NCBI RefSeq assembly: GCF_025362475.1
Contig: NZ_JANYGH010000058.1
Span: 248,001 to 312,000 of the forward strand
Length of the DNA: 64,000 bases
Source: Mucilaginibacter sp.
Lineage (GTDB): Bacteria > Bacteroidota > Bacteroidia > Sphingobacteriales > Sphingobacteriaceae
Reading direction: 5' to 3'
In this document: positions 27,011 through 29,629 of the stretch, in pieces
How positions within the stretch are numbered: position 1 is the stretch's first letter
Layout of the letters: every line of letters begins with the position of its first letter
Made by a program: the position numbers and the translations under genes
The notes under the pieces: model-generated
Databases searched by the model: none
What the model saw: the letters and a program-made list of their open reading frames with translations, nothing else
What the model was told of the DNA's origin: nothing

Positions 27011-27325
27011 TTATTCCGCGGCTTCTTCGCCTTTTGAGCCCAGCTCAACAATATTGCCTTTCTGAAACAGGATGGCTTTTAAAGTGGTACGCCAAACCGG
27101 TTTTTTGCGCAGTAAAAATTCCAGGTCCATACCAAAATGTTTAAATTCCTCCTGCTGGGCATTTTGCATAATGGCTTTAGCATCTTTGTCGGTTTCAACA
27201 GATATGCGTTGCTCGTACCAGTTAATGGCTTCTGCTTCTTCGGTAAGGGAAACAATCATCCTGGCAAAAGTGCGCGTTTCGGCAGATAGTTCGTTTACGG
27301 GTTCGTGGTATTGATCAAATGACAT
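27011..27325 (-). CDS. Encapsulated-ferritin (EncFtn) family protein
   Basis: A 104-residue two-helix protein that fits the EncFtn pattern: IVSLTEEAEAINWYEQR, with the acidic pair, Trp and Tyr at the ferroxidase position, then EEFKHFGMDLEFL with the ExxH ligand pair and LFQKGNI toward the end. EncFtn forms decameric rings that oxidise iron and usually sits inside an encapsulin shell. There is no shell gene within the window and no clear SLGIGSL-like loading peptide at the C-terminus (GSKGEEAAE). It is followed directly by a macrodomain gene. Family assignment is good; function without a shell is open. Confidence 0.8.
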   Translation of the reverse strand: MSFDQYHEPVNELSAETRTFARMIVSLTEEAEAINWYEQRISVETDKDAKAIMQNAQQEEFKHFGMDLEFLLRKKPVWRTTLKAILFQKGNIVELGSKGEEAAE

Positions 27326-27386: not shown

Positions 27387-27625
27387 AAGGATTACAGATT
27401 ACATAACTGATTTATAAGAGCTTGCTTCTAAGGACCTCTGTAAACTTTCGTCCCCTCAGGGTCTCTCGCAGAGGACCCTGAGGAACCATGCAGGTCCAAT
27501 TGCATAGTATTATACTTTGCAAACGGCCTCAGGGTCCGCTGCGAGAGACCCTGAGAAGACAAAAGGATTACAGATTACATAACTGATTTATAAGAGCTTA
27601 TTCTTGAAGGTTTCTGTAAACTTAA
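27387..27625. repeat. Double-hairpin element flanked by 61-bp direct repeats
   Basis: A 115-bp element at about 27448-27562 starts CGTCCCCTCAGGGTCTCTCG and ends CTGAGAAGAC. Its two ends are each a hairpin (CCTCAGGGTC with GACCCTGAG), and the two ends are also complementary to each other (28 of 29 bases). It is flanked by direct copies of a 61-bp sequence, 27387-27447 and 27563-27623. The first 37 bases of these copies are identical and the rest diverged. The remainder of the 27326-27787 gap shows no gene. Confidence 0.88.
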
Positions 27626-27787: not shown

Positions 27788-28600
27788 ATGCCGATTCAAT
27801 CATATATCTCCAAGCACCAGGATATAGTACAGCTGATTTATTTTGCCATGATCCTTATTTCTTTATGGGGTAGCGAAGTGGTATTTACCAATAATTTATT
27901 TGGCGAAAAGCTTAAACATACCCGCGTAAACCTGCTATTTATTGTTACGGCATTGCCCATCCAGTTATTCATGATCAGTTTAGTATTGCTGATAACTGTT
28001 TGGACCCATCAGCATCATTGGGGATTAATTAATTATTTACCGTTTCATAAAAACGCCTGGGTATATTATATCAGCCTGTTTATCCTGATGGATCTTTGTG
28101 AATATACCTATCACGTAATTATGCATAAGTTTGATTTTCTCTGGAAATTCCATCTTGTACATCATAGTGATTTAAAGGTGGATGTATCAACCACGGTAAG
28201 GGAACACCCGGGTGAAACGTTTGTAAGAACCAGCTTTTTAATGCTTTGGGTGTTTTTACTTGGCCCGGTAGCTACCGTTCTTGTTCTGCGGCAAACGGTA
28301 CAAACATTTTCAAACATTGTGGCGCATACCACATTCAGGCTGCCGAGGCATATTAACAATATTGTTGGGTTAATTTTTATTACGCCCAACATACACCAGG
28401 TTCACCATCATTATAAATTACCCTATACCGATTGTAATTACGGCGATGTTTTAAGTATTTGGGATCGCATTTTCGGCACCTATGCCGAACTGGAACCCCA
28501 GGAAACAGTATTTGGGATAGATACCCATATGGAGCCATCTACCAATAGCAGGTTTATAAACGTACTTAAAATCCCTTTTCAAAAACTGAAGCGTATGTAA
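27788..28600 (+). CDS. Fatty acid hydroxylase / sterol desaturase family protein
   Basis: A 270-residue membrane di-iron enzyme with four to five hydrophobic segments. The eight-histidine set is visible as HVIMHKFDFLWKFHLVHHSD (HxxxH and HxxHH types), EHPGE, and HQVHHHYKLPYTDCNYG (HxxHH). The family hydroxylates or desaturates fatty acids, sterols, carotenoids or sphingoid bases. It is followed by a barrel protein gene 26 bp on, and both are bracketed by copies of the double-hairpin element. The substrate is not evident. Confidence 0.88.
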   Translation: MPIQSYISKHQDIVQLIYFAMILISLWGSEVVFTNNLFGEKLKHTRVNLLFIVTALPIQLFMISLVLLITVWTHQHHWGLINYLPFHKNAWVYYISLFILMDLCEYTYHVIMHKFDFLWKFHLVHHSDLKVDVSTTVREHPGETFVRTSFLMLWVFLLGPVATVLVLRQTVQTFSNIVAHTTFRLPRHINNIVGLIFITPNIHQVHHHYKLPYTDCNYGDVLSIWDRIFGTYAELEPQETVFGIDTHMEPSTNSRFINVLKIPFQKLKRM

Positions 28601-28626: not shown

Positions 28627-29247
28627 ATGAAGTTATCGCAACCGCTAATTTATTTTGTTTTTTTGTTGTTGATAATCAATTGTAGCAAGAGTTACGGGCA
28701 AAATAGTATCATGTCAAAATTCTATTTTCCAGGCCAGTTAGGTTTAAGTTTCCCTCATGTTGATGATCAAAAATTAAATTTAAAAAAAGGTTTTATGCTT
28801 ACAACAGCGCTGGAGTTTAGGCCGGTTGATGGCAATGCCCTATTTATCAGATTTAATTATGATGCGATAACCAACCATTACCAGGAAGTTTATTTAAACT
28901 CCCCCACTAATGTTAACACGGGTAAACTGTCTTCCTCTATTTTTTCTCTCGGTTTAGGATATCGCCACAAGGCGGGCATTTTTAAATTATTTGGCCTTTT
29001 GCAACCCGGCTTAGGTATCAATAATTACGACAAGGTAAATTTTAACACAGAAACAATTACTGTAGAGCAGGTAAGCCGCAGGCATTTATCATTTAAAATT
29101 ACTGCAGGCGCGGAGTATTACCTGGCCGAGCATTTTGCATTAACAATTGAGCCATCTTACTTTTACCTGTCTCCACGCGGTAATTACAGGTTGCTAAACC
29201 CGCAAAGCTTAAATCTTAGCCTGGGCTTTACAACAACGTTATTTTAA
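28627..29247 (+). CDS. Outer-membrane beta-barrel protein, unknown
   Basis: A 206-residue secreted protein with a signal peptide (LIYFVFLLLIINCSKSYGQN). Cys18 is not in a good lipobox, so it is probably cleaved after SYG. The mature part is beta-rich with alternating hydrophobic residues (FSLGLGYRHKAGIFKLFG, LSFKITAGAEYYLAEHFAL), ending SLGFTTTLF with a terminal Phe. This is typical of small barrels. It is 26 bp downstream of the hydroxylase gene and shares its strand. The function is unknown. Confidence 0.75.
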   Translation: MKLSQPLIYFVFLLLIINCSKSYGQNSIMSKFYFPGQLGLSFPHVDDQKLNLKKGFMLTTALEFRPVDGNALFIRFNYDAITNHYQEVYLNSPTNVNTGKLSSSIFSLGLGYRHKAGIFKLFGLLQPGLGINNYDKVNFNTETITVEQVSRRHLSFKITAGAEYYLAEHFALTIEPSYFYLSPRGNYRLLNPQSLNLSLGFTTTLF

Positions 29248-29275
29248 AAAACCGTAAGCACTTGCCTCTTATTTA

Positions 29276-29543
29276 AAACGTAAATACCATTTCGTCCCCT
29301 CAGGGTCTCTCGATAGAGGACCCTGAGGAACCATGCAGGTCCAATTGCATAGTCTAATACTTTGCAAACGGCCTTAGGGTCCTCTGCGAGAGACCCTAAG
29401 GAGACAAAGAAACGTAAATACCATTTCGTCCCCTCAGGGTCTCTCGATAGAGGACCCTGAGGAACCATGCAGGTCCAATTGCATAGTCTTATACTTTGCA
29501 AACGGCCTTAGGATCCTCTGCGAGAGACCCTAAGGAGACAAAA
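29276..29543. repeat. Two tandem copies of the double-hairpin element
   Basis: Copies at about 29293-29409 and 29427-29543 match the element at 27448-27562. They are separated by a repeated 17-base AAACGTAAATACCATTT, which also precedes the first copy. The inner part (ACCATGCAGGTCCAATTGCA) is nearly the same in all three copies. The 3' arms read CCTTAGG/CCTAAGG instead of CCTCAGG/CCTGAGG, so both sides of the local hairpin changed. The spacer after the second copy leads straight into the ArsB-like gene. The minus-strand ORF here is only the repeat read through. Confidence 0.9.
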
Positions 29544-29629
29544 ATAAAACGTATATGCTGCTTAATGTTGATTTTTTATGCAGAAACTTTTCCTGTAGCT
29601 GGCTAAATTATAACATCTTTGAAAACAAT

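Follow-up and report, generated by a model that had tools for sequence, protein, structure and literature searches.

A CGTC-tagged REPIN between long direct repeats in a Mucilaginibacter genome and a candidate RAYT for its mobilisation

The window analysed here is a 64,000-nucleotide stretch of a Mucilaginibacter genome (contig NZ_JANYGH010000058.1, positions 248,001 to 312,000). It contains a 115-bp palindromic element set between two 61-bp direct repeats, raising the question of what kind of element this is and how it came to be bordered by repeats of such length. The initial annotation had offered two origins for the arrangement, an insertion whose target duplication is unusually long or a tandem duplication, and two identities for the element, a non-autonomous mobile element or a structured RNA gene.

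Anatomy and copies of the element

The features of the locus, in window coordinates, are:

27387..27447 (+): left direct-repeat copy, 61 bp, read as a target duplication; begins AA, ends TT
27448..27562 (+): REPIN, non-autonomous, 115 bp; two inverted CGTC-class REPs, tags outward, spacer of ~43 bp
27446..27484 (+): left REP (profile score 50, seed alignment, fold)
27485..27525 (+): spacer between the REPs, resembling the spacers of this genome's other copies
27526..27564 (-): right REP, opposite orientation, tag TGTC (profile score 34, fold)
27563..27623 (+): right direct-repeat copy, 61 bp, 85% identical to the left copy

The description of an element with hairpin ends that are also complementary to each other was confirmed for 27448-27562, where the two 39-nt arms are 90% paired. 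Relative to dinucleotide shuffles, the whole element, folded as single-stranded DNA at -45.1 kcal/mol, has z = -12.8; the two ends folded separately gave z = -4.1 and -3.4. The left REP runs from the target TT through the tag CGTC into the hairpin CTCAGGGTC-[T bulge]-CTC-GCA-GAG-GACCCTGAG. As the annotation had also noted, no protein-coding part is present: no gene covers the 115 bp, which are flanked by divergent genes at 27011-27325 (-) and 27788-28600 (+), and the REPIN copies in the window, for which position was examined, are intergenic.

A search of the window's genome yielded 25 matches to the element, two of them elsewhere in the window, and the element is therefore not a chance structure. 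Copies occur at more than 10 places in this genome, and related REPs were found in 38 of the 100 genomes compared, nearly all of the same genus. The search for other copies with varied flanks, by which the annotation had proposed to check its reading, thus returned such copies in both settings.

REPs were located by profile HMM. The hairpins collected share a YGTCCC tag directly 5′ of the stem, with G at 94% and T at 91% across 191 REPs, and a fixed bulged T. Compensatory changes occur at the hairpin foot (CTC/GAG, CGC/GCG, ATC/GAT) and in the upper stem (CTC/GAG, CCT/AGG, CCTT/AAGG, CTCC/GGAG), so that foot and upper stem covary while the bulged T and the YGTC tag remain constant. Adjacent REPs form 60 tag-outward doublets in the profile search, compared with 28 pairs in other orientations. 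REPINs and BIMEs are characterised by an inverted pair of REP hairpins that together fold into a larger one, by a short conserved tag 5′ of each and by many dispersed copies; on these sequence traits, the element is a REPIN (a REP doublet of BIME type) built of CGTC-tagged REPs, a class that the annotation had not recognised.

A structured RNA gene or a transcription terminator kept for its RNA fold might equally have the very stable fold and the intergenic position. However, an Rfam search of the element returned no family at gathering score, only sub-threshold microRNA hairpin hits, and the evidence of mobility argues against such a role as the origin of the element, making it a very unlikely reading. 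Once inserted, the element may act in RNA. The alternative of a non-autonomous mobile element gained support from the dispersed copies with varied flanks and from the RAYT gene with matching ends in relatives, described below.

Direct repeats, arrays and empty sites

The two repeat copies bordering the window element are identical over their first 37 bases, as the annotation had stated, and differ at nine positions that all fall within the last 24 of the 61 nt. Similar one-sided clustering is seen at locus L168, and gene conversion or error-prone fill-in is a possible cause in the window. The first ~14 nt of the left repeat extend a promoter-side motif (ATATTTAGAAGGATTACAGATT) of the adjacent minus-strand gene, and most of nine relatives retain this motif ahead of the same gene. 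Because its start continues the motif upstream of the neighbouring gene, the left end of the repeat appears ancestral, which suggests that it predates the insertion. The neighbouring gene has its nearest named relatives in Mucilaginibacter.

The comparison of empty and filled sites suggested by the annotation was successful for three other insertions, in two REPIN families, where the empty site carries one repeat copy and the filled site two. At L187 the element lies inside another repeat, and homologous loci (L241-L248), one of them from the same genome as L187, have a single 12-17-bp repeat copy with continuous flanks. The insertion at L302, which belongs to the second REPIN family and has a 47-bp repeat, is matched by a related genome with one copy and no element (L325), as is the insertion at L048 (~59-bp repeat) by L322. 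For the window's own insertion, neither named relatives nor genomes of the genus yielded a complete empty site; the left promoter side alone aligns, because the flanking gene pair is not conserved or syntenic. Judged from these alignments, the direct repeats at REPINs are target duplications. The proposed insertion with an unusually long duplication is hence supported by the empty and filled sites at the three other insertions, while tandem duplication by itself leaves the empty sites unaccounted for.

The target at L187 (2002-2230) is itself a copy of an unrelated dispersed repeat with the core GGAACACGCTGATTATAAATAAATTACA, present in several Mucilaginibacter genomes (L187, L241-L248). Another abundant repeat (CGTCATTGCGAGG..., TGTCATCCTGAG...) lies near several REPINs (L153, L154, L163, L132, L142) and inflates some flank matches.

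Strong direct repeats between left and right flanks were present at 15 of the 60 doublets. Abutting direct repeats near both element ends occurred at 13 of the 60, as against none of 302 shifted controls and none of 1757 cross pairs; these fractions are indicative, since the doublets were gathered by similarity and are incompletely independent, some lying in arrays or sharing a genome. Abutting repeats also occur at 3 of 19 doublets of a second REPIN family, which has its own RAYT. Both the sequence and the length of the repeats vary by locus, the latter from about 13 to 172 bp. No direct repeat could be detected at approximately 75% of doublets, which means that repeats are lost by decay or that some insertions produce none.

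In arrays, N elements are accompanied by N+1 repeats. The window holds one such locus, with two elements and three flank repeats, 1.8 kb from the query element:

29276..29291 (+): flank repeat 1 of the second REPIN locus, AAACGTAAATACCATT
29292..29408 (+): REPIN copy 2 (search match 29290-29408), with 93% identity to the query element across 119 bp
29409..29425 (+): flank repeat 2, separating the tandem REPINs
29426..29543 (+): REPIN copy 3 (search match 29424-29543), likewise with 93% identity across 119 bp
29547..29559 (+): flank repeat 3, decayed (AAACGTATATGCT), read directly from the sequence

The 85-aa open reading frame listed at 29244-29501 (-) is probably no true gene, consisting solely of an in-frame reading of these tandem REPINs.

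Two further explanations bear on the repeats. Simple duplication of host DNA in tandem, with a junction hairpin and no mobile element, would produce adjacent repeats such as the 85% identical pair in the window, but is refuted by the presence of the same element at many unrelated sites and by the empty sites with a single repeat; we regard it as barely conceivable. Inverted ends flanked by direct repeats are also what a MITE of a DDE transposon would present, with terminal inverted repeats and a target duplication of fixed length. Here, however, duplication length varies between 12 and about 170 bp, both ends form hairpins of their own with directional tags, and the gene with the same ends is an HUH/Y1 RAYT rather than a DDE transposase, no gene for which was seen bounded by these ends among the loci examined. 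Such a MITE is accordingly a highly improbable source of the element.

A RAYT subfamily flanked by CGTC REPs

The annotation had asked for a transposase with matching ends, and a RAYT gene of this description was found in related genomes. At five loci, two tag-outward REPs lie ~620-730 bp apart around a ~190-aa gene, which is disrupted at some of them. Across related genomes, one RAYT subfamily is flanked by CGTC REPs with tags outward at 21 of 22 complete loci, comprising all 13 loci of a first set, five further loci from the same genus and three from another genus. A further RAYT locus, L265, has REPs on both sides in mixed orientation. By comparison, the 15 other RAYT loci had no CGTC REP nearby, and several of them carry another REP, with the tag YGCC and TTGTTGGTGTTGTCACCAACAA; among 29 IS200-like loci, one had a REP, 0.7 kb away.

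Loci of a second RAYT lineage in the same genus (L206, L208, L210-L214, L218, L220) are flanked by the YGCC-tag REP, which also builds tag-outward doublets (dimers L302-L321). At L194, L199 and L266, an end of the RAYT gene (the last codons, ITDYREFWG, or the first ~17 codons) is duplicated beside the gene, together with a REP.

The RAYT protein matches the NCBIfam family REP_Tyr_transpos, and residues H60, H62 and Y145 are invariant. Its AlphaFold2 model (pLDDT 86.8) has as top PDB match 4ER8, a REP-associated tyrosine transposase bound to a REP hairpin. In its NHxH and YIH[HN]NP motifs, its length of ~180-190 aa, its occurrence in Bacteroidetes and its flanking structures without GT[AG]G, the subfamily resembles RAYT subclass 2.6/group 5, for which flanking structures were called atypical (PMC6006769); here they are CGTC REPs. 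Compared by motifs rather than by the authors' profiles, it is a possible member of subclass 2.6 (NH[LIV]H, YIH[QN]NP, ~179 aa): motifs and length agree, but three members have A at the variable HUH position and the Y motif mostly reads YIHHNP.

Some relatives carry members of the subfamily (~58-70% identity), as do 18 of the 301 genomes examined from the order, spanning three genera. None was found in the window's own genome, the assembly of which is 95% complete, nor in several other REP-rich genomes, and a role for the RAYT in the window's genome is thus proposed by analogy with its relatives. Four Y1 genes of this genome were considered as the linked transposase and rejected, as no REP motif lies within 1.5 kb of any of them. 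Since this genome has no such RAYT, its elements look like orphans, probably the remnants of a population whose enzyme was lost. REPs without their RAYT are reported to be fairly frequent (PMC3686654).

Proposed insertion at T-rich sites and relation to known systems

Near and far repeat copies match up to a T or TT and then part at the tag. T occupies the boundary in the far copy at 11 of 15 ends (p about 0.001) and the same position in 79% of the 191 REPs, with background frequencies further upstream; some repeat boundaries have no TT. The duplicated target in the window reads AA...TT, and both strands would therefore be cut 3′ of TT. A TT target is not obviously predicted by a guide rule of the IS608 type.

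Cleavage by HUH enzymes yields a 5′ phosphotyrosine and a free 3′-OH, and these enzymes can transfer strands (PMC8266576). We infer that an HUH/Y1 enzyme of the particular RAYT subfamily flanked by CGTC REPs would move the REPIN in trans, binding the tag and hairpin at each 5′ end of the doublet and cutting both strands just 5′ of the tag to form 5′-phosphotyrosines. Each 5′ end would be joined to the 3′-OH from a target nick 3′ of a T-rich site (TT preferred), the nicks lying on opposite strands and 12 to about 170 nt apart. Filling in of the long 3′ overhangs would then leave a direct repeat AA...TT on each side; two opposite-strand HUH cuts with fill-in would thereby give the repeats as observed. 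Unequal recombination between the repeats could subsequently generate arrays of N elements and N+1 repeats, or remove the element. We have good confidence in the overall reading of the window element as a REPIN moved in trans by this RAYT subfamily, through staggered T-rich nicks and fill-in, with later loss of the enzyme from this genome.

The chief rival is insertion without duplication, in which the REPIN enters single-stranded DNA in an IS200/IS605-like manner, replication slippage or one-ended local transfer later duplicates flank and element in tandem, and one element is then precisely excised. Tandem REPIN clusters including their flanks, as well as precise REPIN excision, have been published for P. 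fluorescens (PMC3116915), and the arrays at 29290-29543, L131 and L168 and the duplicated RAYT gene ends at L194, L199 and L266 agree with such a course. It nevertheless requires three events for every single-copy repeat-element-repeat locus, and such loci are common (the window, L302, L187, L048). In addition, both repeat ends, not one, tend toward the tag boundary with its T-rich context. We consider this course of events unlikely.

Insertion by a RAYT through staggered nicks can also be framed more generally. RAYTs may insert REPINs by staggered T-rich nicks of both strands, a double-strand HUH transposition that duplicates 12 to ~170 bp and differs from the single-strand peel-and-paste pathway of IS200/IS605. 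This would apply to two or more RAYT/REP pairs, that of the CGTC REPs among them. This proposal is tentative, and we would place it a little short of an even chance. The RAYT and its REPs do share the Y1 HUH transposase fold, bulged subterminal hairpins and a 5′ guide-like tag with IS200/IS605 elements. The latter are, however, reported to make no larger target duplications (PMC2817692), unlike the REPIN insertions described here.

With the REPINs and BIMEs mobilised by RAYT (TnpA-REP) in P. fluorescens SBW25 and E. coli (PMC3116915; PMC8266576), the Mucilaginibacter elements share an inverted, tagged hairpin doublet with a conserved spacer, copies both dispersed and in tandem clusters and, in relatives, a RAYT gene between the same REPs. 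They differ in having a CGTC-type tag instead of GTAG and in that long direct repeats of variable length, identified as target duplications by the empty sites, border some of the doublets. The tag itself places them close to the CGTC-tagged REP super-family, also reported from Bacteroidetes (PMC3733652), with which they have in common an unpaired 5′ end bearing a CGTC/TGTC tag, dimers arranged head-head with tags outside, and conserved spacers. The four families described there have a stem of 8-9 bp with AT at the foot and a loop of 4-5 nt; the REPs studied here fall outside them because their stem differs, with 9 + 3 bp, a bulged T and a foot of CTC, CGC or ATC rather than AT pairs. CGTC REPs were also described as not associated with transposase genes and as having no dedicated transposase (PMC3733652), in contrast to the close linkage to a RAYT gene found here.

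As tandem REPIN clusters with their flanks were already published (PMC3116915), the arrays alone are not new. Our literature search, with most subscription journals outside its reach, turned up neither a RAYT for CGTC REPs nor any single REPIN described between long target duplications and matched by an empty site, and nothing relevant was found on REPs of Mucilaginibacter. Work of 2013 left open whether a transposase is dedicated to CGTC REPs (PMC3733652), and the linkage of a RAYT to these REPs bears on that question. The filled and empty sites, with their long and variable duplications, constrain the mechanism by which REPINs spread and provide a genomic signature to seek elsewhere, and the duplications are thus a clue to the spread of a common class of bacterial repeats.
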